NCBI GenBank assembly: GCA_017522105.1
Contig: JAFXAA010000031.1
Span: 32,890-96,889 of the forward strand
Origin: Bacteroidales bacterium
Lineage (GTDB): Bacteria; Bacteroidota; Bacteroidia; Bacteroidales; P3
Direction: 5' to 3'
Length of the DNA stretch: 64,000 nucleotides
The translations under genes were made by a program, and so were the position numbers. This document shows positions 10,519 through 35,947 of this stretch, piece by piece; within the stretch, counting starts at the first letter, position 1; each line of letters starts with the position of its first letter. The notes below the pieces were generated by a model that saw only the letters and a program-made list of their open reading frames with translations, was not told the origin of the DNA and made no database searches.

Positions 10519-12777
10519 CTATCTCAGTTCAAGCACCACCGTCACGCCCCTCTTGGCAGCATTATTTGCTTTGGGGTTCTGCGAGCGAACCTTGCCGTAT
10601 CCGTTCACCTTCACTTTGTATCCGTTCTCATGCAGCAGGGCTATGGCATCCTTGGCCGTCATGCCGTAGCAGTTGGGCACCCTGCCACCGACAGGCTCGT
10701 ATGCCACATAGCGTCCCTCTGCCGAATCGCTCGCCGCCACGTATGAGACCCACGTCCCAACGCTGTCGTCACAGGCAAAGGGCAGCTTGAAGCGCTTGTA
10801 GAGGTCGCGTATATCGTCGGCACGTCCCTTGGCGAGCGTCGGGCGCTGCTGCGCCATGGCACTGTCCTCCTCCAGACGCGGCCACACGCTCTTCACGGCA
10901 CCGTCACTCAACCCCTTGTCCACAGCCACCACACAGTCGCTGATGGTCTTGAAGACCACGGCAGCCTGACGTCCGTAAACAGGTATGTTCTCCAACATCA
11001 CCAAGCAGGTGTAGCGAGGGCTTTCCGAAGGGAAGAAGCCTGCAAAGGAAGCATTGTAACGTCTCTTGTTAGAGTAGCTGTGCACTGCCGTGCCTGTCTT
11101 GCCGGCAATGCCATAGGTGGTGTTCTTGATGTTGTTGCCCGTACCGTTTTCCACCACACCTTCCAGCATGTCGTGCATCAGCGCGGCCGCGCGGCGATTG
11201 CAGATGTGCTCGTTGAGCACCACAGGCTTAATTTCACTACGGCTGCCGTCGCTCTCTATGACAGCACGGCAGAAGAGTGGTTTGACCATGCGCCCGCCAG
11301 CCCCAAGGCCATTGTAGAAGGTGAGGAGCTGCAGGGCAGACACACGCGTGGAATAGCCGTAGCAGAAGTTCAGGAAGTCACGGTTGGAGGCATGCAGGTT
11401 GTTCACATAAGTCTTATACTCCGGCGCCTTGATGTCGGGGTTCAGCTTGCCGTAGGGGAACATCCGCTCCACCAACGCACGAAGGGTGTCGCGGCGGTTG
11501 TTGTAGAGACGCCAGCCCAGGTCGCTCATTCCCACGTTCGACGACTGCTCCATCACGCCCTTCAGCGTCAGCGAGTCCCAATCGCCATGGTCGTCCTTTA
11601 TTTCACCGTTCACGCCACCGAAGTTCTTATAGCGCGCCGGCAACATCATGGTGGTGTCTATCCTCACATTGGGGTCGTTGAGCATAGCCGTGAGGATGAC
11701 GGTCTTGAAGGTGGAGCCTGGCTCATAGACATCGCTCACCGCCACGTTGCGGTCGCGCACTTCAAGGTAGTCGTGCGCCGCCGTGTCAATGGCCAGGTTG
11801 ACGCAGGCCAGCATGTAGCCGGTACTCATCTCCATGAGCATGGCGCATCCCGCCGTGCCGCCATACATGTTGAGGGCTTTGCGGAGCGAGCTCTCGGCGA
11901 TATCCTGGTAGCGGGTGTCTATGGTGGAGACAATGCTGCGCCCGTCCACACGACGCTGCAGCACTATGGTGTCTATCGTTGCCGTGTCGGTGCGTTGCGC
12001 CACCTCCCTTGGGGCGTGAGGCTCGTCGGGCAGCCAGATGCCTTTGGTCAGGCGGCGGCAGTTGAGCAGACCGTCCTGACCGCGCAGGATGCTGTCGTAG
12101 TAGCCCTCCAGGCCCGTGTACGAACCGCTCTCCTTGCGGTTGCGGAAGCCTATGGTGTTGCCGGCCAGGTTGCCGTAGATGTGCGCGCGCACCTGGTGCA
12201 CCACGCTCTGGCCGTCCACCTGGCGCACCACGCCATGGCTCCACCCCGGCAGACGCGTAATCTGAAGCCACACCGAATAGGGCACACCCCGCTGCACGAG
12301 GAAGCAGCGCCGCGGACGCTCCTTGCAGCGCTCCACAGCTATGCGTTCGCGGTAATAGGAGACATCGTGTCCCGGCATGGCGTCGGCAAGCATGATGCAC
12401 AGGGTGTCAAGGTAAAGGTTGAAGCTGCTGTCCACTATGGGGCCCGTCTGCATCGGGCGACCCTGCTTGTCATACTTCGCGTTGCCTCGCTCGTCAAGTT
12501 CGGGCTTGTTGTGCAGGTCGAGGTACAGGTCGCACTCCGTCACCGTGGTGGCCAATATCTTGCCGTCACTGGAGTATATGTTGCCGCGGCGCGCGGGGTC
12601 GCTGCGCAGGCCGGCCTCGCGGCGCTCGCCGAGGGCGCGCCACTCGTCGCCGTGCACAAACTGGATGTTCACCATGGCCAGCGTGATGGCCAGGCCCACA
12701 CCCACCGTGAGCACAAGGTAAAGCACCATGAGCCCGCGCGACAGACGCCTGTCTTTGTTATCTTCCTTTTCCTTCAC
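10519..12777 (-). CDS. ftsI: Septal penicillin-binding protein FtsI/PBP3 with PASTA domain
   Basis: This is the septal D,D-transpeptidase partner of FtsW. The 752-residue protein has one N-terminal transmembrane helix (about 14-35) and a dimerisation/pedestal region. The penicillin-binding domain carries STFK (355-358, nucleophile Ser355), SSN (412-414) and KTGTA (560-564). A C-terminal PASTA domain lies around 694-751 (VPNCYGMTAKDAIALL). PASTA-bearing FtsI is usual for Bacteroidota. Cytoplasmic N-terminus and periplasmic catalytic domain are inferred from topology. Confidence 0.96.
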   Translation of the reverse strand: MKEKEDNKDRRLSRGLMVLYLVLTVGVGLAITLAMVNIQFVHGDEWRALGERREAGLRSDPARRGNIYSSDGKILATTVTECDLYLDLHNKPELDERGNAKYDKQGRPMQTGPIVDSSFNLYLDTLCIMLADAMPGHDVSYYRERIAVERCKERPRRCFLVQRGVPYSVWLQITRLPGWSHGVVRQVDGQSVVHQVRAHIYGNLAGNTIGFRNRKESGSYTGLEGYYDSILRGQDGLLNCRRLTKGIWLPDEPHAPREVAQRTDTATIDTIVLQRRVDGRSIVSTIDTRYQDIAESSLRKALNMYGGTAGCAMLMEMSTGYMLACVNLAIDTAAHDYLEVRDRNVAVSDVYEPGSTFKTVILTAMLNDPNVRIDTTMMLPARYKNFGGVNGEIKDDHGDWDSLTLKGVMEQSSNVGMSDLGWRLYNNRRDTLRALVERMFPYGKLNPDIKAPEYKTYVNNLHASNRDFLNFCYGYSTRVSALQLLTFYNGLGAGGRMVKPLFCRAVIESDGSRSEIKPVVLNEHICNRRAAALMHDMLEGVVENGTGNNIKNTTYGIAGKTGTAVHSYSNKRRYNASFAGFFPSESPRYTCLVMLENIPVYGRQAAVVFKTISDCVVAVDKGLSDGAVKSVWPRLEEDSAMAQQRPTLAKGRADDIRDLYKRFKLPFACDDSVGTWVSYVAASDSAEGRYVAYEPVGGRVPNCYGMTAKDAIALLHENGYKVKVNGYGKVRSQNPKANNAAKRGVTVVLELR

Positions 12778-12845
12778 AAATCCTTTCTATATTATATTGT
12801 ATGTCCTTTTATAGTATTGTCTTAACCTCTCATCTTCTGCACCCC

Positions 12846-13283
12846 TCACAACTCATACGGCGGCCCTGCCGTGATTCCCACGCCCGTCTCCTTCAGGTCC
12901 TCAGCTATCTGCGACATCTTGACGCTCTGCTGATACTGCTTCTGCATCTGTATGCGCTGCTCGCGCAGGTAGTTGATGCGCTCCTCGGTGGCAAGCTTTT
13001 CGCGGCTCATGCTCTCTATGCGGTAGCGGTTGCCGATAATCAGGAGCAGGTACAGCAAGCAGAGCAGCAGCAGCGGTATCTGGCGCAGCACCAGCTTGTC
13101 GGCCAGCAGGTCGCCCCCGAGCAGGCGCCCGAGGCCGCGTGCAGCCTTGTCGGCGCGCCCCTTCTTGCGGGGCTTTGCCTCCTCGGCGGCGACAGGCTCG
13201 GAGGCCACCGTCTCCACGACAGGTTCCTCGACCTTCGCCTTAGGCTCTTCCGCAGCCTGTTTCTCTCTGAACTTGTTGCCCAT
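12846..13283 (-). CDS. ftsL: FtsL-like divisome protein
   Basis: A small bitopic protein of 145 residues. It has a long charged Glu/Lys/Ala-rich cytoplasmic N-terminus and one transmembrane helix (about 68-83, IPLLLLCLLYLLLIIG). A periplasmic heptad-patterned coiled coil (about 85-135) contains EKLATEERINYLREQRIQMQ. The layout, and the position between rsmH and ftsI, match FtsL, which forms the FtsQLB complex. FtsL proteins share little sequence, so the identification is by architecture and synteny. Confidence 0.85.
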   Translation of the reverse strand: MGNKFREKQAAEEPKAKVEEPVVETVASEPVAAEEAKPRKKGRADKAARGLGRLLGGDLLADKLVLRQIPLLLLCLLYLLLIIGNRYRIESMSREKLATEERINYLREQRIQMQKQYQQSVKMSQIAEDLKETGVGITAGPPYEL

Positions 13284-13300
13284 ATATCAACTATCCGTTT

Positions 13301-13335
13301 TCAACTCTCCACTTTCAACTTTCCACTCTCTACTC
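13301..13335. repeat. 7-bp tandem array forming the 3' end of rsmH
   Basis: Five consecutive degenerate heptamers (TCAACTC, TCCACTT, TCAACTT, TCCACTC, TCTACTC on the plus strand) encode the last codons of rsmH. The TGA stop is the complement of the first three bases of the first unit. Confidence 0.85.
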
Positions 13336-14260
13336 GCTCCCCCACCCTGAGCCTCGCGCTGCGGGCGCGGCTGTTGGCGGCCACTTCCTCGGGCGATGCC
13401 GCAAGGCTCGCCAGCTGCTTCAGCGGCACCAACGGGTTGCCGTAAAAATCCTTCTCCACCACACCCTCGAAATTGCCGCTGCGCATGAAGTTCTTGACCA
13501 GGCGGTCTTCGAGCGAATGGTAGCTGATGACCACCAGGCGGCCGCCCGGCGGCAGCAGTTCCACAGCCTGCGACAGCATCTCGCGCAGGGCGTCAAGCTC
13601 GCCGTTCACCTCTATGCGCAGAGCCTGGAAGAGCATGGCCAGGTACTTGTTCTCCATGCCACGCGGCAGGTGGTGGCTCACAGCCTCCTTCAGGTCGGTG
13701 GTCGTCACGATGTCGCGACGCTCGCCGCCCGTCCTCCACCTCACTATGGCCCGTGCCATCTGCCTGGCGTTGGGCAGCTCGCCGTAGAGGCGCAGCACGC
13801 GTGCCAACTCCTCCTCGTCGGCACCGTTCACAAGGTCGCGCGCCGTGGTGGCGGCGCGGCGGTCCATGCGCAAGTCCAACGCACCCTCGAAACGAGTGGA
13901 AAAGCCGCGCTCGGCCACGTCGAACTGGTGGCTGCTCACCCCAAGGTCGGCCAGCAGGCCGTCGATGCGGCGCACACCGTGCAGCCGCAGGTAGCTCTTC
14001 AGGTAGCGGAAGTTCTCGCCGATGAAAGTAAAGCGTGCATCGCTCTCCACTCTCCACTCTCCACTTTCCACCCGCTTGGCGGCATCCTCGTCCTGGTCGA
14101 AAGCCACGAGGTGCCCCTCAGGACCCAGACGCTCCATGATGGCACGCGAATGGCCGCCGCCGCCGAAGGTGACGTCGACATAGGTGCCGTCGGGGCGGAT
14201 GTTCAAACCGTCCACCGCCTCGGCAAGCATCACGGGTCTATGGTACTCAAATTCTTGCAT
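13301..14260 (-). CDS. rsmH: 16S rRNA (cytosine1402-N4)-methyltransferase RsmH
   Basis: RsmH N4-methylates C1402 in the ribosomal P site using SAM. The start is set at the ATG giving MQEFEYHRPVMLAEAVDGL, which aligns with family N-termini; upstream in-frame sequence overlaps mraZ in another frame. The SAM loop is VDVTFGGGGHSRAIME and the C-terminal motif VISYHSLEDRLVKNF is present. Two stretches are made of 7-bp repeats. VESGEWRVES (about residues 64-73) interrupts the segment after DQDEDA, and the extreme C-terminus ERVESGKLKVES includes a stop codon supplied by the repeat. It overlaps mraZ by 14 bp. Confidence 0.96.
   Translation of the reverse strand: MQEFEYHRPVMLAEAVDGLNIRPDGTYVDVTFGGGGHSRAIMERLGPEGHLVAFDQDEDAAKRVESGEWRVESDARFTFIGENFRYLKSYLRLHGVRRIDGLLADLGVSSHQFDVAERGFSTRFEGALDLRMDRRAATTARDLVNGADEEELARVLRLYGELPNARQMARAIVRWRTGGERRDIVTTTDLKEAVSHHLPRGMENKYLAMLFQALRIEVNGELDALREMLSQAVELLPPGGRLVVISYHSLEDRLVKNFMRSGNFEGVVEKDFYGNPLVPLKQLASLAASPEEVAANSRARSARLRVGERVESGKLKVES
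14044..14071. repeat. 7-bp tandem array in frame inside rsmH
   Basis: Four heptamers (TCTCCAC three times, then TTTCCAC) lie in the rsmH coding sequence and encode the VESGEWRVES stretch on the minus strand. The motif is nearly the same as that of the array at the 3' end of the gene. Confidence 0.85.
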
Positions 14261-14741
14261 CGCTCTCGACTGGTCCTTTGCCCTCCGCGTCCACGCGGCG
14301 GCCCAGCAGCTCCTCTGCGCGCTCCGCATAGTCGCCGCCGGCTTCTTCCATCTTGTCGTAGGTCTTGCGGTCCCAGAGCTCGATGAACTTGCCAGTCGAT
14401 TGCAGCACCACCTCTTTGGCCTCGGCCACCACTGCTTTCTGCTCGGCGGGAATCAGGAGCCGGTCGTTGGTGTCCAGCTCGATGATGTTGCCCTCCGTCA
14501 GCTTGCGCAGCAAGTCGCGGTCTTCGCGGCGGTAAGGATTCAGGCGTTCCTGCAGTTTCTCCACTTCCTCCCTGAAACTGGCGTAAGTCCACAGCTCCAA
14601 ACACTCGGCATAGACACTGCGGCGGATGACGAAACGCCCGTCCTCGGTCTCCAGCTGCCTCTTCAGGGCAATTGGGAACTTGAAGCGACCGTTCGAGTCC
14701 ACCTTACAGTATTCTTTTCCAAGTATTAAGACCATTTCCAC
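14247..14741 (-). CDS. mraZ: Transcriptional regulator MraZ
   Basis: MraZ is the DNA-binding regulator encoded first in dcw clusters. The 164-residue protein has two SpoVT/AbrB-like halves: KVDSNGRFKFPIALKRQL near the N-terminus and ELDTNDRLLIPAEQKAV near the middle. A charged C-terminal extension of about 25 residues follows. Translation could start at M1 or at M3 (MVLILGKEY). As the first gene of the cluster it faces a 593-bp divergent spacer. I could not define the MraZ operator there, although TAATTTTA (complement of 14762-14769) is a possible -7 element. Confidence 0.95.
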   Translation of the reverse strand: MEMVLILGKEYCKVDSNGRFKFPIALKRQLETEDGRFVIRRSVYAECLELWTYASFREEVEKLQERLNPYRREDRDLLRKLTEGNIIELDTNDRLLIPAEQKAVVAEAKEVVLQSTGKFIELWDRKTYDKMEEAGGDYAERAEELLGRRVDAEGKGPVESDARI

Positions 14742-17501: not shown

Positions 17502-19790
17502 ATGAAACAAATCCAGCGACAGCAACTGCAGCAGAAACTATCGCCTCAGCAGATACAGCTGATGCGGCTGCTGCAGTTGCCTGTCACCGAGCTGGAGCAG
17601 GCCATCAAGGAGGAGGTGGAGAAAAACCCCCTGCTGGAGGCCGAAGTGCAAGACGAGACGCCCCTGCCACAGTCCGACAACCGCTCGGATTGGGACAGCG
17701 ACGAGGACGAGGACTACGAGTACGACTACCACGAACATCAGGAAGGCGACCCCAACGAAACGCGCCGCGAGTTCGTGGTGAGCGACAGCCAGACGGCATC
17801 GGAGCGCCTCATGCAGCAGCTCTCATTGCGCCACATGACCGAACGCCAGGAGAAGATAGCCACCGAGCTGGTGGGCACCCTCGACGATGCCGGCTACCTG
17901 GGGCGCGACCTGGCACTAATCACCAACGACCTGGCATTCCGCCAAGGCATAGACGCCACGCAGGAAGAAGTGGAGGAGGTGCTGCACATCATACAGAGCC
18001 TCGACCCCGCAGGCATAGGAGCCCGCAGCCTGCAGGAATGCCTGTTGCTGCAGATGGAACGCCAGCATCCGGCAGACAGCACGCGGCAGACGGCCATAGC
18101 CGTGCTGCGCGACCACTTCGACGACTTCGCCAACCACCGCTACGAACACATCTGCCAAGCCCTCGGCATAGGCAACGACGAGATGGAGGCCGCCGCCAAC
18201 GCCATCCGGAACCTCAACCCCAAGCCCCTGGGTTCGGACAGCGAGGACAACGACACCGCGGCCTACGTCATACCAGACATAGTGCTCACACAGCACGAAG
18301 GACAACTCAGCTTCTACGTCAACGACAGCTACCTGCCACGGCTGAGCCTCAACACCTACTACACCGACATGCTTGCCGCCATGGAGAAGAACGGCGGCGA
18401 CCGCGAGACGGTGCGCTTCCTGCGCTCCAAACAAGGCGACGCGCAAGGCTTCATAGACATGCTGCAACAACGCCACGACACCATCGTACGTGTGATGCAC
18501 TATATTGTGAAGCACCAACGCCGCTTCCTGCTCAGCGGCAACCCCGACCTGCTGGTGCCCATGCGCCAGCGCGAAGTGGCCGAAGCCACCGGACTCGACA
18601 TCAGCACGGTGAGCCGCATGGCCAACAGCAAGTACCTGCAGACAGACTTTGGCACCATCCCCCTCAAGGAATGCTTCTCGAAAGGCATGTCCACAGACGG
18701 TGGCGAAGAGGTGGCCGTTGAGACAATAAAGCAATACCTCTCCGACACCATTGCCGCCGAGGACAAGCACGCACCGCTGTCCGACGATGCCATCACCAAG
18801 CTCTTCAACGAGAAAGGCCTGCCCATAGCCCGCCGCACGGTGGCCAAATACCGCGAACAGCTGGGCATACCGGTGGCGCGCCTGCGCCGCACGCTGGTGC
18901 TGCTGCTGGCAATGCTGGCGTCCTATGGCGCACAAGGTCAGATGTCATACTATGACAGCATCATAGCCGCCCGCATGGAGAAGGCCGCCCGCATCGAAAG
19001 CGCCGTCAAGCCGCTACCGGCACCGAAAGCCGCCAAAGCTGCAGCGGCCAAGGCTGCACCGCAACCAAAAGCGGCGCCGCAGCGCCAACACGCAGAAAGC
19101 TCCGCCACCGAGACACCCTCACTGACGCCCATCGAGGCCTTCATGGTGCCGATGTGGTACGACGGTTTTCCGCGCAACCGCGTAAACCCGCACGGCAAGA
19201 CAATGGTCAGCATGCTGCCCGACGAGATTAACCTGGTGCTGATAAAAGACACCGCAGACTTCTGCTTCCCCGTGAAGAACACGAAGACCAGCCCCTACGG
19301 ATGGCGCTGGCGCCGCGGGCACCACGGCGTGGACATACGTCTGCGCACCGGCGACCCCATACACGCGGCCTTCGGCGGCACGGTGCGTGTGGCATCGCGC
19401 ATGGGCGGTTATGGCAACTGCGTGGTGCTGCGCCACCCCAACGGACTTGAGACGCTCTACGGACACCTCTCAAAAATCAACGTCAAACACGGCCAGCAGG
19501 TGGCCGCTGGCGACGTGATAGGCCTCGGCGGCAGCACCGGCAACAGCACCGGCCCGCACCTGCACTTCGAGTGCCGCTTCCTCTACCAGACTTTCGACCC
19601 AGAATGGATACTGGACTTCAGCAACTATTCCCTGCGCACGCGACGCCTGCACCTCGACAAAAGCTACTTCGGCATCCGCCAGCCCCGCAAGGGCGAGGAG
19701 CTGCAATACAAGGCCGACAACAGCATCATACGCGAGAGCAAGAAGAACCGCAAGGCACAGGCAACAACCATCAACCCAAAAGACTTTTAA
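17502..19790 (+). CDS. rpoN: RNA polymerase sigma-54 factor fused in frame to a secreted M23 peptidase
   Basis: One open frame of 762 codons holds two proteins. Residues 1-456 are a complete sigma-54. The Gln-rich activator region (KLSPQQIQLMRLLQ) is followed by an acidic region II, a core-binding part, the HTH near 355-380 (REVAEATGLDISTVSRMANS), and the RpoN box ARRTVAKYRE at 443-452. Directly after the normal sigma-54 end comes RRTLVLLLAMLASYGAQGQ (about 462-480), which looks like a signal peptide. An Ala/Pro/Lys linker (about 500-540) and an M23/LytM domain (about 590-695) follow. The M23 zinc/active residues are visible: H607-D611 (HHGVD), H655 (YGHL), H686 and H688 (HLH). An in-frame GTG at 18873 (V458) would give a free-standing preprotein MARLRRTLVLLLAML..., so separate products from one frame are possible. 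A true fusion would be a membrane-anchored sigma factor. Confidence 0.9.
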   Translation: MKQIQRQQLQQKLSPQQIQLMRLLQLPVTELEQAIKEEVEKNPLLEAEVQDETPLPQSDNRSDWDSDEDEDYEYDYHEHQEGDPNETRREFVVSDSQTASERLMQQLSLRHMTERQEKIATELVGTLDDAGYLGRDLALITNDLAFRQGIDATQEEVEEVLHIIQSLDPAGIGARSLQECLLLQMERQHPADSTRQTAIAVLRDHFDDFANHRYEHICQALGIGNDEMEAAANAIRNLNPKPLGSDSEDNDTAAYVIPDIVLTQHEGQLSFYVNDSYLPRLSLNTYYTDMLAAMEKNGGDRETVRFLRSKQGDAQGFIDMLQQRHDTIVRVMHYIVKHQRRFLLSGNPDLLVPMRQREVAEATGLDISTVSRMANSKYLQTDFGTIPLKECFSKGMSTDGGEEVAVETIKQYLSDTIAAEDKHAPLSDDAITKLFNEKGLPIARRTVAKYREQLGIPVARLRRTLVLLLAMLASYGAQGQMSYYDSIIAARMEKAARIESAVKPLPAPKAAKAAAAKAAPQPKAAPQRQHAESSATETPSLTPIEAFMVPMWYDGFPRNRVNPHGKTMVSMLPDEINLVLIKDTADFCFPVKNTKTSPYGWRWRRGHHGVDIRLRTGDPIHAAFGGTVRVASRMGGYGNCVVLRHPNGLETLYGHLSKINVKHGQQVAAGDVIGLGGSTGNSTGPHLHFECRFLYQTFDPEWILDFSNYSLRTRRLHLDKSYFGIRQPRKGEELQYKADNSIIRESKKNRKAQATTINPKDF

Positions 19791-19792
19791 GC

Positions 19793-20290
19793 ATGACCGA
19801 GAAGAAAACCAATCTCTCAGACTACAACCGCGACGCCGTGCCCGACGGCAGCAAATACCGCATAGGCGTCATAGCCGCCGAATGGAACCCCACTGTGACC
19901 GACGCCATGCTCAATGGCGCCGTGGAGACCCTCGCGGCCAACGGAGTGAAAGAGGAAAACATCATGGTGAAACGCGTGCCGGGCACCTTCGAGCTCAGCT
20001 CGGCAGCCGACATGATGCTGCGCCACTGCCTCCTTGACGCCGTGATATGCATAGGCTGCGTCATACAGGGCGAGACACGGCACTTTGAGTTCATCTGCCA
20101 GGCAGTGTCGCAGGGGCTCACCAACGTGGCTGTCAAACACGAGCGCCCAGTCATTTTCAGCGTCCTCACCACCGACACCATGCAGCAGGCCCTCGACCGC
20201 GCAGGCGGCAAACACGGCAACAAAGGCGTAGAAGGCGCCGTGACCGCACTGAAGATGTGCGCCTACAGAGAGTCGCTAAACAATAACTAA
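19793..20290 (+). CDS. ribH: 6,7-dimethyl-8-ribityllumazine synthase RibH
   Basis: RibH catalyses the penultimate step of riboflavin synthesis, condensing 5-amino-6-ribitylaminouracil with dihydroxybutanone phosphate. The enzyme usually forms 60-mer or pentameric shells. The 165-residue protein contains IGVIAAEWNP, VPGTFELSSAADMML, and CVIQGETRHFEFIC followed by the QG-T-V region. All are conserved active-site segments. The start ATG lies 2 bp after the previous stop, which excludes upstream in-frame codons that run through the M23 gene. Confidence 0.95.
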   Translation: MTEKKTNLSDYNRDAVPDGSKYRIGVIAAEWNPTVTDAMLNGAVETLAANGVKEENIMVKRVPGTFELSSAADMMLRHCLLDAVICIGCVIQGETRHFEFICQAVSQGLTNVAVKHERPVIFSVLTTDTMQQALDRAGGKHGNKGVEGAVTALKMCAYRESLNNN

Positions 20291-28739: not shown

Positions 28740-31025
28740 ATGAAAAAAGCATTATTAAGTCTATTTTTGGCTTTCACTTGCATGCCTGTATTCGCACAGA
28801 CTAAATCTGTCGTCGTAGAGCACATCAACCTTGTACGGTGCACCCCTTTCTTCTGGAGCATCACAGATAGCACCTACAGCGAGAGTACAGTTGTAACCGT
28901 GACACGACCAGACACAGTATATGTCTTAGACCTCACCATTGACCCCGATGGAATCATAAGAGACACCGTAAATGTGACTGCCAACTGCACCTATATCTGG
29001 CGAGACAGCCTGACATTCCACACCTCCGGTCTTGATTCTGCCAGAGTTCTTGCCACCAGCGGATGTGACAGCATTCACTACTTCAACCTGACCATAAATG
29101 GAGACTTTGATACGTTAATGCTTGACACCACAGTGTGTGGCTACTATATGGCACCTTGGGGAGAAAGACTTACCCATGACACAATAATTGATACCAACTA
29201 TACCACCGAAGCTGGATGCCAGCGCCGCGACAGTCTTATTCTCAAAGTAAACCCCACCTACAACATGCCACCCGTCATCAAAGAGGCTGATTGTAGTTAT
29301 ACATGGCGTGCGGCCAACGATCTCGTCATCACCGACACCATGATACACTCGTTCAAGACCAGAGGCACCAATGCCGGATGCGACAGCATAATAAACATCA
29401 AAGTCAATATGTCTTTCCACATAGATACAACTTATGACACTGTAGTATGCGACAAATATATTGCCCCATGGGATAACATCTACACAGCTACTGGCACACA
29501 TGTGCATCGCGACACATCGGCCACTGGCTGTATCACCACGACCACCGTAGAGCTCACTGTCAACAACAGCTTTACCGACACCGCATGGGCACTTAACAAT
29601 ACTATTGACACCACCATTGGCTGCTACCTTACGTGGGGCGACACAACCATAAAAAACATTACCGCCGACACCGTGCTGCGCAGACTCAGCAATGTCGCTG
29701 TCAACGGCTGCGACAGCGTGGCCGCAGTGCATGTAATAGCCCTTTCTCACATGGAAGATGTAGATACCACTGTCACTCCATGTTTCCACCCATATAGGTG
29801 GCATCCCTACACCGGCAAAGTACACTCCCTTAGTAATAGCGGCGTTTATCGTGACACAAACATAACAGGTACCGGGGAAAACACATGTACAACCCATTAT
29901 ACACTCAACCTCAACTTCGGTGATTCCATCAGCAACAAGTATGCCAAACGTAAACTCCGCTGCGAGTTTGACAGCCTAAAGATTGGCACGCCGCGCTACT
30001 CGTTCCGCATTGAAAACGGCGATACCGTTGTACGCAAATATGCCAATAACAATATGACAATTGTAGACATAGATAGTATTTTCACATACAACTCATCCAA
30101 AAAGTGTACCACATACTTCAAGATAGGCCTAAACATAATGCAACCCATAGACACAACCAGGACCAACACCAAAGTTGCCTGCGACAAATATCAGGATCTG
30201 ACATTTAACCATGTATTTACAAAAAGTATAGACACTTCCATTGTTCACAAAGGAAGACCCGATATCAATTCATATAGTGACCTTAATGTGGATATTCCTC
30301 ATGAGGCAGCAGCATGCTACAACAGAATATATACGCTAAACCTTACAATAAACAACAGCGATACTTTGAGAAGGGCGAGTGACACTGTGACGAGCTGCGA
30401 TAAATATGTGTGGCCATTCAATGACTCAACATATATAAGAACAACTAACATTTATCGCAAAACAAAAGACACAACTATTCATGGATGTGCAGTATATTGC
30501 AACCTGAACCTGACTATCAACAACACCCCGTTATCATATATTACGGGCGATTGGATGCTTGCTCCCGACGGCAGTACAACCCTGCATGCTGTGAGCCAGG
30601 ACAACAACCTCACCTACGCATGGTACGAGAACGGCACCTATGCAGCTGATGGCGATACCTATGAGGTGACCGACCGCAACAACCACGAGAATATTGACAT
30701 CCTTCTCACCGCCAGCAACGGCAACGGCTGCCCCGACAGCAACTGGCTGACCATCGTCTTCGCCCCCATTGGCATCGACGACGTTGATGGTGTTGACGTG
30801 AGCATCTTCCCCAACCCCGCCACGCGTTTTGTCAACCTGCGCACCTCCGAGGCCATCAGCACCGTTAGCGTGTTCAACGCCATCGGCCAGCAGGTGATGT
30901 TGCGCCAGGGCGACGGCGAGGACATGCAGATAGACCTCACCGGCCTTGCCAGCGGACACTACACCATGCGCATCCGCACCATTGAAGGCCATGAAGCAAT
31001 CCGCAAATTTATCGTCAACAAATAA
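28740..31025 (+). CDS. Secreted Cys-repeat protein with T9SS type A sorting domain
   Basis: A 761-residue secreted protein of unknown function. The signal peptide is MKKALLSLFLAFTCMPVFA. The body is a series of diverged 90-100-residue units with paired motifs of the form C-x-Y-x-W and GCDSxxxxxLTIN, related to the repeats of the 61-64 kb protein. The C-terminal part, VSIFPNPATRFVNLRTSE to HEAIRKFIVNK, is a T9SS type A domain, so outer-membrane export and surface anchoring are inferred. The repeat body (to about 30,540) is markedly AT-richer than the last ~480 bp, suggesting a composite origin. Its terminator lies inside the next gene. Confidence 0.85.
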   Translation: MKKALLSLFLAFTCMPVFAQTKSVVVEHINLVRCTPFFWSITDSTYSESTVVTVTRPDTVYVLDLTIDPDGIIRDTVNVTANCTYIWRDSLTFHTSGLDSARVLATSGCDSIHYFNLTINGDFDTLMLDTTVCGYYMAPWGERLTHDTIIDTNYTTEAGCQRRDSLILKVNPTYNMPPVIKEADCSYTWRAANDLVITDTMIHSFKTRGTNAGCDSIINIKVNMSFHIDTTYDTVVCDKYIAPWDNIYTATGTHVHRDTSATGCITTTTVELTVNNSFTDTAWALNNTIDTTIGCYLTWGDTTIKNITADTVLRRLSNVAVNGCDSVAAVHVIALSHMEDVDTTVTPCFHPYRWHPYTGKVHSLSNSGVYRDTNITGTGENTCTTHYTLNLNFGDSISNKYAKRKLRCEFDSLKIGTPRYSFRIENGDTVVRKYANNNMTIVDIDSIFTYNSSKKCTTYFKIGLNIMQPIDTTRTNTKVACDKYQDLTFNHVFTKSIDTSIVHKGRPDINSYSDLNVDIPHEAAACYNRIYTLNLTINNSDTLRRASDTVTSCDKYVWPFNDSTYIRTTNIYRKTKDTTIHGCAVYCNLNLTINNTPLSYITGDWMLAPDGSTTLHAVSQDNNLTYAWYENGTYAADGDTYEVTDRNNHENIDILLTASNGNGCPDSNWLTIVFAPIGIDDVDGVDVSIFPNPATRFVNLRTSEAISTVSVFNAIGQQVMLRQGDGEDMQIDLTGLASGHYTMRIRTIEGHEAIRKFIVNK

Positions 31026-33060: not shown

Positions 33061-35835
33061 TTAGCGGACGATGAGCTTCTCAACCTTGCTGAACTTGTCG
33101 TTGGTGACGCGCACGAAGTAGGCGCCGGCAGCGATGTTGCTCAGGTCGACAGTGTGGCTGCTCTCAGCGTTGATGGTGCGGGAGTAGACCACGCGGCCGC
33201 TCATGTCGATGATGCTGCAGTCAACCATACCGGTGACACCGCGCATGTTGATGGACACAGTGCTGGTGGCGGGGTTGGGCTGGAGGCCAAGAGCCACGTT
33301 GACAGCTTCGCTCTCGATGCCGAGGTTGAAGGGATATGCATGGCCGACGGCGCTGACGGAGTGGTCACCAGTAATGTTGGTGAACGTCACGATGTACACA
33401 TCACGTCTGAGCAATACATTGCCATCAGCATCGCGGAGTGCCTCGGGCTGGGCAGTGATAGAATATTCGTCGGTGATGAAGTTGTCCTCATCGGTGACAC
33501 TGATGGTCTGGCCGTCAATAATAATGGCATCGATAACACCAGGATGGGCATAGCTGCTGTCGCCGTGACCCCACACATAGACAGTGGCATCGCCGCCTTC
33601 GAAGGTGGTGAGGGTATCGCCGCAGGCGTTATGATACATGTTGCTCTCCACATTGTAAATCTCATAGTTGGTATCGGTCTCAGAGCAGGTGACGGTGAGC
33701 TGGTGCTCGGCAATCTCCATGCGGGGGCCAACGATGAGGCGAATCATGGGATAGTAGGCATAGTAATCGCCACCAGAGAAACCGGTCACGCCACCATCGG
33801 CAACATAGACATCATGATACTCGGGAGTAAACTGGCGGTAGTAGGGCATACCAAGGTCAGGATCCTCACTGTAGCGGGTACCGGTGCCGGCAGCATCATA
33901 GTAGCCATAGAGGTGACGGGCAACGCCAAAGTAACCATTCTCTGCCAAAGAGTAGCCGAAATAGTAGGCAGTGTTGGGTCTCAGCTCAGGCTGACCATAG
34001 AACTGGATATTGACGGCATTGTAGTTCTCACCGGGACGGATGACGCCGTTGTTTTGGTCAAACTGGGGGTTGACGTCATTAGCGGTAACAGTGTAGGTGT
34101 ACTCATCAGACAGGCCGGTGAACTCGCTGCCCATGAGGTAGCGGCTGTAGTAGATACGGCCGTCGGAAGAGTCGGTGAACGTGATGCTATAGACCCTCGG
34201 CATGATGACAGAGCCAACCTGGGCGGAAGCGGTGGTGTCGGTACGCGGAACAATCTCCATACCACGGATGACCCAAGGGTTGCCCTCGTCGTCGGTGGGG
34301 ATTTCATCAGGTGTAGAGATACGGGTTGTCACCGTGTAACCTGCCGTGTTGAATGTCTCACTGCTAGTAGTATAGTAACGGTTCTCACCTTCCACATAGT
34401 AGCCGAAACGGAAGCTTGAGCGCGAGGGGATGATGCCGTTGTCGTGAGCCAGGCGGAAACCTTCGAGGAGGTTGGTGTTGCCACCACCAGTGGCGCCGAC
34501 CACGCGGTAGCCGATAGTGTCGTACTCAATGGTGTCGTAGTTGGCACCAGCGGTGCCGGTGACAGTAATCTGGTTGAGACCGATTTGGTCGGTGGGCAGA
34601 CCGACGCGCGTGTAGTGGGCGGGCAGGAGATCGGAAGTGGTGTCCCACACCGGGCCGAGGTTGTACATACCGGTGGTTCTGATGCTGTCGAAGAAACCAC
34701 GCTCGTTGAGGGTGATGTACTGGAGGGCAGAGATAGCAGGAATCAGGCTGTCAGCGGTTTTGGAGGTGATGGGGGTCTTGACGCCGGAGGGGCTGATGTG
34801 CCAGGCAGTGGCCTTGGCATTCGTGATGGTCTGAGCACCATCGTTGAAGACCTGACCGTACCAAGCCAGAGGGATGTTCATGCCGTAGGGGATGGTGGCA
34901 TAGGCACCGTCGACAAACTGGTGCTGCGCGCCATACCAATGCTCACTCACAGCAGGCACGATGGCGATGTCGTCAAGAGCATAGTAGAAACCATAGACAT
35001 TGCTGCTGGTGGACGTCTGCACGCGGAAGCGAAGCTGCAGGTTGGGCTGCTGGGCAAACTCGACAGGCATGGTGAGGCCCTTCTTGATAGAGACCCAGCT
35101 CTGCATCGAGGCATCAATACCGACAACATTGTACTCGACAGAATACCACTCGTTGCCAACCTTGAACTCCACAAACTCCTGGTCATACCACTTCATACAG
35201 TCCTGAGTGATGCGAACCTCGTAGAGGCCGTTAGTGTTGGGGTTGGTGATGGCGGGAAGCTGCACATAGCAGTCATGCTGCTGAGAGGATGTGTGGACAG
35301 CACCACCAAAATAGATGAACATCGTGTTGTTGACGTGCGAGGCAGCACCGGTGCCATCGTTGTAGTACAACAGGTTGTTGTTAATCCAGTTTACATCGTA
35401 GCCAAACTGAGCCAACGAACCGCCGGAATAGGTGCTGGCATTCGTGCGCAGGTAGTTGGTGTCAGGAATCAGCATGAAGAATGCGGCATCGCCACTGAGG
35501 TTGTGGGCAGGGATGCTCACAGTGGTCCATCGGTAGTTGCTGTCGGGGTTCTGCATCTTGACGCTCTGGTTGGCACCAACAGCACCACTCGTGCCGTAGA
35601 CAACATTCGTCGTGTTGTTGAAGTCCCAGAAACCGTCAATCAGAGTGTCACCGATGCCGTTGCCACGCTGTTTGGTGAAGATGGAAGCCTTGTAGTCGAC
35701 AGACTTGTTCTGCACAACACCGGTTTCCACATTGCGAGTGCCCCGGCCGTCAAGCATGCTGGTGCAATCGTTGGTCTGTGCCGTTGCCATGGTGGCGAAC
35801 AGGGCCAAACCGAGAACCATTAATGTTTTTTTCAT
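33061..35835 (-). CDS. Secreted T9SS type A sorting domain protein
   Basis: A 924-residue secreted protein of unknown function. The start at MKKTLMVLGLALFATMATAQ gives a clean signal peptide and lies after the promoter, unlike an in-frame ATG 69 bp upstream. The middle is rich in Tyr/Asn/Thr and beta-strand-like, with no domain I can name. The C-terminus (LGLQPNPATSTVSINM to GAYFVRVTNDKFSKVEKLIVR) is a typical T9SS type A domain, indicating export through PorKLMN-type machinery and surface retention or release. It is monocistronic and shares a terminator with yicC. Confidence 0.88.
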   Translation of the reverse strand: MKKTLMVLGLALFATMATAQTNDCTSMLDGRGTRNVETGVVQNKSVDYKASIFTKQRGNGIGDTLIDGFWDFNNTTNVVYGTSGAVGANQSVKMQNPDSNYRWTTVSIPAHNLSGDAAFFMLIPDTNYLRTNASTYSGGSLAQFGYDVNWINNNLLYYNDGTGAASHVNNTMFIYFGGAVHTSSQQHDCYVQLPAITNPNTNGLYEVRITQDCMKWYDQEFVEFKVGNEWYSVEYNVVGIDASMQSWVSIKKGLTMPVEFAQQPNLQLRFRVQTSTSSNVYGFYYALDDIAIVPAVSEHWYGAQHQFVDGAYATIPYGMNIPLAWYGQVFNDGAQTITNAKATAWHISPSGVKTPITSKTADSLIPAISALQYITLNERGFFDSIRTTGMYNLGPVWDTTSDLLPAHYTRVGLPTDQIGLNQITVTGTAGANYDTIEYDTIGYRVVGATGGGNTNLLEGFRLAHDNGIIPSRSSFRFGYYVEGENRYYTTSSETFNTAGYTVTTRISTPDEIPTDDEGNPWVIRGMEIVPRTDTTASAQVGSVIMPRVYSITFTDSSDGRIYYSRYLMGSEFTGLSDEYTYTVTANDVNPQFDQNNGVIRPGENYNAVNIQFYGQPELRPNTAYYFGYSLAENGYFGVARHLYGYYDAAGTGTRYSEDPDLGMPYYRQFTPEYHDVYVADGGVTGFSGGDYYAYYPMIRLIVGPRMEIAEHQLTVTCSETDTNYEIYNVESNMYHNACGDTLTTFEGGDATVYVWGHGDSSYAHPGVIDAIIIDGQTISVTDEDNFITDEYSITAQPEALRDADGNVLLRRDVYIVTFTNITGDHSVSAVGHAYPFNLGIESEAVNVALGLQPNPATSTVSINMRGVTGMVDCSIIDMSGRVVYSRTINAESSHTVDLSNIAAGAYFVRVTNDKFSKVEKLIVR

Positions 35836-35947
35836 GTTGTTTGATTTTTGGTGATTAATATTTTCCTTTTCATTTTCCAGCCCAACACACACGCCTGTAA
35901 GCATTTGCAGCGGTATACGGGCACTTTTTCAGTTTTCAATTCAAATG

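Follow-up and report, generated by a model that had tools for sequence, protein, structure and literature searches.

Sigma-54 (RpoN) is usually regarded as a soluble subunit that is switched on solely through AAA+ activators. A single gene that yields two proteins by way of an internal signal sequence is known from the cytochrome b/c1 polyprotein FbcH of Bradyrhizobium. Sigma factors joined to a membrane segment have been described among the ECF factors. In both ECF52 (SCO4117, Streptomyces) and IutY (ECF243, Pseudomonas putida) the sigma factor stands first on the chain, followed by a membrane segment and an extension at the C-terminus; ECF52 includes a Pro-rich stretch and, outside, a carbohydrate-binding domain, and IutY is released by Prc and RseP (PMC8999054, PMC5826349). 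Bacillus subtilis makes pro-sigmaK as a precursor bound to the membrane, from which an S2P protease releases the sigma factor (PMC11486902). RseP of E. coli clears signal-peptide remnants; leader peptidase acts first, and the S2P protease then cuts the remnant, which is of type II (N-in, C-out) (PMC8144685).

The gene analyzed here resembles ECF52 and IutY in that one chain carries an N-terminal sigma factor, a membrane-type segment and a C-terminal extension. Both of those belong to the ECF (sigma-70-type) factors and include an anti-sigma or zinc-finger part, whereas the present fusion is a sigma-54 in which no anti-sigma domain was found. Its outer part, moreover, is an enzyme and its membrane segment is of the cleavable signal-peptide type. 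Pro-sigmaK differs in its N-terminal pro-sequence and in not being fused to a secreted protein; for the RpoN studied here, release by S2P is only proposed. The order of events in RseP clearance is the order proposed below for freeing RpoN, but the E. coli remnant is a short peptide and here it would be a whole sigma factor. FbcH shares the internal signal sequence and the two proteins per gene; its products are respiratory-chain subunits, whereas here they would be a transcription factor and an enzyme. The fusion may work like ECF52, IutY or pro-sigmaK, and is not a member of these groups, the sigma-70-type core and the anti-sigma part being absent. The open literature searched, from which subscription journals are mostly excluded, yielded no sigma-54 joined to an M23 domain or a membrane segment. 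In each of 85 related genomes, the only RpoN found here is followed in the same frame by a signal-type segment and a secreted peptidoglycan hydrolase. Such a fusion could tie gene control to protein export.

A complete sigma-54 factor in frame with an M23 peptidase

The following features were recognized in the window, that is, the whole stretch of 64,000 nucleotides that was analyzed:

17502..19790, + strand: rpoN::M23 fusion gene, a single open frame of 762 amino acids plus stop
17502..18899, + strand: complete RpoN part, residues 1-466 (full TIGR02395 model; alignment to a solved RpoN)
18828..18857, + strand: RpoN box ARRTVAKYRE, residues 443-452
18873..18875, + strand: GTG, codon of V458, at which an internal start was proposed earlier; the codon is GTG or ATG in just 50/85 fused genes
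18891..18938, + strand: hydrophobic signal-peptide-like segment, residues 464-479, with a signal-peptidase-type site at its end
18999..19145, + strand: Ala/Pro/Lys-rich linker, about residues 500-548 (from the sequence; mostly low confidence in the structural model)
19317..19601, + strand: Peptidase_M23 domain, residues 606-700, with H607, D611, H686 and H688
19793..20290, + strand: ribH (PF00885), two bases after the fusion gene

The original prediction described an RpoN without a stop codon that runs into a signal-like segment, an Ala/Pro/Lys linker and an M23 domain with its zinc motifs, and both the frame and the profile scans agree with this description. The translated frame extends from the ATG at 17502 to the TAA ending at 19790 with no internal stop. 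PF00309, PF04963, PF04552 and TIGR02395 all score above their cut-offs, and thus all three sigma-54 domains are present: the activator-interacting domain (Sigma54_AID, 2-46), the core-binding domain (CBD, 92-287) and the DNA-binding domain (DBD, 306-463). The TIGR02395 match pairs residues 7-463 with positions 1-434 of the 434-position model, and residues 8-466 align with residues 10-477 of the solved RpoN chain 9mse_M, which has 477 residues and is therefore covered to its very end. The hydrophobic run from residue 464 onward reads TLVLLLAMLASYGA, and a signal-peptidase-type site lies at A477|Q478 or G479|Q480. The M23 domain is well supported (PF01551, 110.5 bits against a cut-off of 28.7); H607, D611, H686 and H688, the residues of the zinc-ligand motifs, are invariant across 83 aligned fusions. 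No anti-sigma domain was found in the fusion protein by Pfam and NCBIfam scans.

An AlphaFold2 model of the fusion, built with 83 alignment rows, reached a mean pLDDT of 76.6 and a pTM of 0.47. It contains a helix over the RpoN box (444-454), a following helix (459-476) and the M23 strands, with a linker that is mostly of low confidence.

The ribH gene is the conserved right neighbor of M23 and is also the next gene in L034, L037 and L168. At 10519-14741 on the - strand lie frames resembling ftsI, mraW and mraZ, a division and cell-wall cluster that points away from the rpoN::M23 operon; these labels were given by eye from the translations and are presumptive.

Distribution and origin of the fusion

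A search of 120 genomes of the genus detected RpoN in 116, and the DNA of all 116 loci was compared. A locus was counted as fused when the RpoN and M23 matches lay inside one stop-free frame. By this definition 85 are fused, 29 have separate rpoN and M23 genes, and two have rpoN without a neighboring M23. No stop codon occurs between the two domains in any of the 85 fused genes (0/85). The in-frame fusion is real and conserved. The original prediction had counted a stop behind the RpoN box in relatives as evidence against a single chain; such relatives do exist in the form of the 29 separate-gene genomes, yet they fall outside the fused group on a tree of RpoN plus M23.

Each of the 85 fused genomes has one RpoN match, and in the source genome the fusion is the sole RpoN; a second, free RpoN was found in none of the 120 genomes. 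Neither RpoN nor a close M23 match was detected in four of the 120 (G003, G032, G062 and G143), which may reflect assembly gaps. In L125 (G120), rpoN lies in two frame-shifted pieces, for which a sequencing error or a broken gene could account.

Within the fused set, identity to the RpoN of the window drops to about 37%, which indicates that the fusion is old. In a second collection, which overlaps the first, 45 of 67 related loci are fused; the record titles there refer to uncultured Bacteroidales or Bacteroidetes, with the rumen or gut of ruminants as a frequent source, and the titled members are metagenome-assembled genomes (MAGs). Outside the genus the picture is different. Among the matches listed from 393 genomes of the order (388 of them outside the family), only the window's own genome and G198 reach M23, and in G198 a TAA separates the two parts. 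No RpoN frame longer than 594 amino acids was found in 24 genomes of other families.

Gene order records how such a fusion could have come about. The Bacteroidales outgroup L168 has the order asnS, rpoN, membrane protein gene, M23, ribH, fmt, and in the 29 separate-gene genomes rpoN and M23 are mostly directly adjacent. A 223-aa membrane protein gene stands between rpoN and M23 in one member of the genus (L094, G076), as does one of 208 aa in L168; it is likely a relic of the older gene order. In the sister genus, the rpoN of L246 (G198, - strand, about 2341) ends in TAA and is followed by the ATG of M23 with zero bases between them and in the same frame: two genes one stop codon short of fusion.

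On the RpoN plus M23 tree (57 rows, rooted with the outgroup), the fused rows require one change (SH-aLRT 68). On the RpoN-only tree (115 rows) the fused group requires 5 changes, a number that falls to 3 when the two rpoN-only rows are dropped; the starred branches force at least 2. A single origin thus appears likely from these trees, though weakly supported and not proven. The two rpoN-only loci, L038 (G013) and L121 (G077), have lost M23 and carry an rpoN with an ordinary stop followed by ribH; both group with the fused genes in the RpoN tree. As their rpoN has an ordinary stop, a sigma-54 can evidently be retained without the tail. With separate-gene and fused relatives in one genus, the passage from operon to polyprotein becomes open to dating and testing.

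Selection and probable retention of sigma-54 function

Both halves of the gene are under purifying selection. Across 14 close pairs, in which some dS values exceed 1, dN/dS was 0.038-0.171 for RpoN, 0-0.155 for M23 (13 defined) and 0.062-0.609 for the signal segment plus linker (12 defined).

Candidate partners and target sites of sigma-54 are also present. The source genome has one strong sigma-54 activator with GAFTGA, and a strong activator match is present in 109/119 genomes. Six perfect TGGCAC-N5-TTGCW sites occur in the source genome against none for the reversed pattern. The -24/-12 pattern was counted 540 times in 84 fused genomes against 179 for the reversed pattern (threefold), and 114 times against 64 controls in the 29 separate-gene genomes; six further genomes of the 119 searched were omitted from this comparison. 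Near the fusion gene itself there is no enrichment of sigma-54 sites in the window (45 near-matches against 48.6 expected).

One -24/-12 site lies 64 bases before htpG. An upstream site (at least 9/11, within 300 bases) was found in 14/16 fused and 8/10 separate-gene genomes against 59/1040 shuffled stretches, in a survey of the 26 genomes out of 30 that have htpG, where the L229 site at -264 may be due to chance and L222 has no clear start. The enriched -24/-12 sites, together with those before htpG, suggest that RpoN still seems to reach promoters in fused genomes. Two of the perfect sites are at G000:C37:18525-18540, before htpG, and at G000:C34:9635-9650, before a frame that looks by eye like, and is presumed to be, an outer-membrane efflux protein.

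The joint and the probable fate of the chain

The original prediction proposed a comparison of the junction in related genomes, and the same joint was found in all 85 fused genes. From the ARR of the RpoN box to the RLR[R/K]-type end there are exactly 21 residues in 85/85; the end motif is RLRR in 72, RLRK in 8 and different in the other five, and the net charge of the flank is +3 or +4 in 85/85. An [A/G/S]|Q site follows 14-29 residues beyond this end in every fused gene, with A (83), G (1) or S (1) at position -1 and Q (85) at +1. Because this site was chosen by that very motif, the frequency of AQ in windows served as control: AQ occurs in 83/85 junction windows and in 5.7% of 14312 windows taken from the rest of these proteins. 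At position -3 Leu is commonest (36), followed by Ala (13), Val (11), Ser (9) and others, so that only the -1 position is strict.

Unfused M23 relatives carry [A/G/S]Q in the signal peptides of 28/29. Their median hydropathy is 2.62 for the best 12 residues and 1.85 for 19 residues, against 2.73 and 1.68 in the fused genes; the fused segment has thus not been lengthened into a stronger membrane anchor. This match and the make-up of the joint indicate that the complete C-terminus of RpoN stands where an ordinary signal peptide has its n-region. At the sequence level, an internal signal segment with a cleavage-type site is present, and sigma factor and hydrophobic segment share a single chain whose insertion into the membrane is predicted.

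The chain is probably a Sec-exported polyprotein that signal peptidase I cuts into a periplasmic M23 enzyme and an RpoN with a hydrophobic tail. The ribosome would complete RpoN, and the hydrophobic segment would emerge directly after its last residues (RLRR) and, acting as an internal signal peptide (N-in, C-out), would engage the Sec translocon. Cutting by signal peptidase I at [A/G/S]|Q would let the peptidoglycan hydrolase enter the periplasm with an N-terminal Gln. RpoN would remain cytoplasmic, at first held in the membrane by its hydrophobic C-terminal tail. Its release for work with the AAA+ activator at -24/-12 promoters may fall to S2P, as a protease that clears signal-peptide remnants, or to another protease. 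The source genome encodes both signal peptidase I and an S2P protease. What points to the polyprotein is the conserved single frame, the kept cleavage-site motif and the constraint on both domains, along with the missing conserved internal start and second RpoN, the retained activator and the enriched promoter sites, all of them read from genomes; translocation, cleavage, tethering, release and any regulatory link of export or wall state to sigma-54 we infer.

Some points count against the polyprotein. It is unusual for a signal peptide to follow about 463 residues of folded cytoplasmic domain, the codon most often found at V458 is GTG, and L038 and L121 retain an rpoN without the tail. If synthesis and cutting proceed as proposed, sigma-54 would have to be counted among the membrane-borne sigma factors, so far ECF factors and pro-sigmaK in the literature examined, and the export of a wall enzyme would be coupled in fixed ratio to the supply of sigma-54. 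A stronger form, in which every RpoN is born attached to the hydrolase, is pulled to the membrane with it and becomes usable only after the signal peptidase I cut and clipping of the tail by S2P, is rather doubtful. Under it, sigma-54 output would report Sec export and the state of the envelope, with one sigma factor per exported hydrolase.

The polyprotein may also carry no regulatory meaning. Two operon neighbors would simply be read together, cutting would be constitutive and the tail of RpoN would be tolerated or trimmed; we give this reading nearly an even chance. The ancestral order of rpoN, the membrane gene, M23, ribH and fmt fits it, as do the single change that removes a stop where the genes are in frame, as in L246 (TAA then ATG), and the loss of M23, once or twice, with rpoN unharmed. 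Against it, a fixed joint in 85 genomes without a secondary stop argues, at the least, for stable maintenance of the fused form. That argument does not tell the two readings apart; harmless read-together is the plain version of the polyprotein.

Less probable is a pair of nested products, in which RpoN-M23 is made and most periplasmic M23 arises from an internal start (the GTG at 18873 here) as a preprotein of VARLRR, signal core and M23. From V458 on, the make-up is indeed that of a normal signal peptide, and the codon is GTG in 48 and ATG in 2 of the 85 fused genes. In the remaining 35 it is GTC, GTA, GTT or a codon for I, P, T, S or E, and a conserved start at this position is not supported. 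Some ATG, GTG or TTG lies between the RpoN box and the hydrophobic core in 82/85 genes, a count that includes L046, whose list of start codons is inflated by a wrongly set site; L029, L052 and L122 have none, and no start position is common to all. The GTG share among valines at V458 is 0.72 against a gene mean of 0.52 (1975/3791), which is only the 6th of 24 valine columns, and synonymous positions in residues 452-475 are conserved to the gene average or less. RpoN would, moreover, still carry the tail. GTG may serve as a start in individual species, that of the window included, as may other codons or species-specific starts. An RNA or frameshift element concealed in the junction was rejected, as residues 452-475 show no excess of synonymous conservation.

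Quite unlikely is an uncut type II membrane protein, with RpoN permanently at the membrane and still joined to a periplasmic M23 that would sense peptidoglycan or act upon it while sigma-54 works at the membrane. Its topology fits the single conserved frame and the positively charged RLRR flank, but the signal-peptidase-type site is kept in 85/85 genes and the core is no more hydrophobic than in cleaved-type signal peptides. Since the tail begins about 11 residues after the RpoN box, DNA bound by an uncut chain would have to lie against the membrane. An assembly or sequencing artefact, such as a stop or frameshift missed in the one MAG from which the window comes, is refuted by the identical in-frame fusion in 85/116 genomes and in 45/67 loci of the overlapping collection. 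The interpretation first placed on this gene is thus partly supported: of its three options, proteolysis between the domains fits best, the permanently tethered bifunctional chain looks less likely than a processed one given the site in 85/85 and the 5.7% AQ control, and the internal GTG fares worst.

Elsewhere in the window, two large proteins with Por_Secre_tail domains (28740-31025 and 33061-35904) point to type IX secretion. An inverted repeat, TGGCACTCAAAGTGCC(A), at 28660-28676 matches both strands and could form a hairpin.
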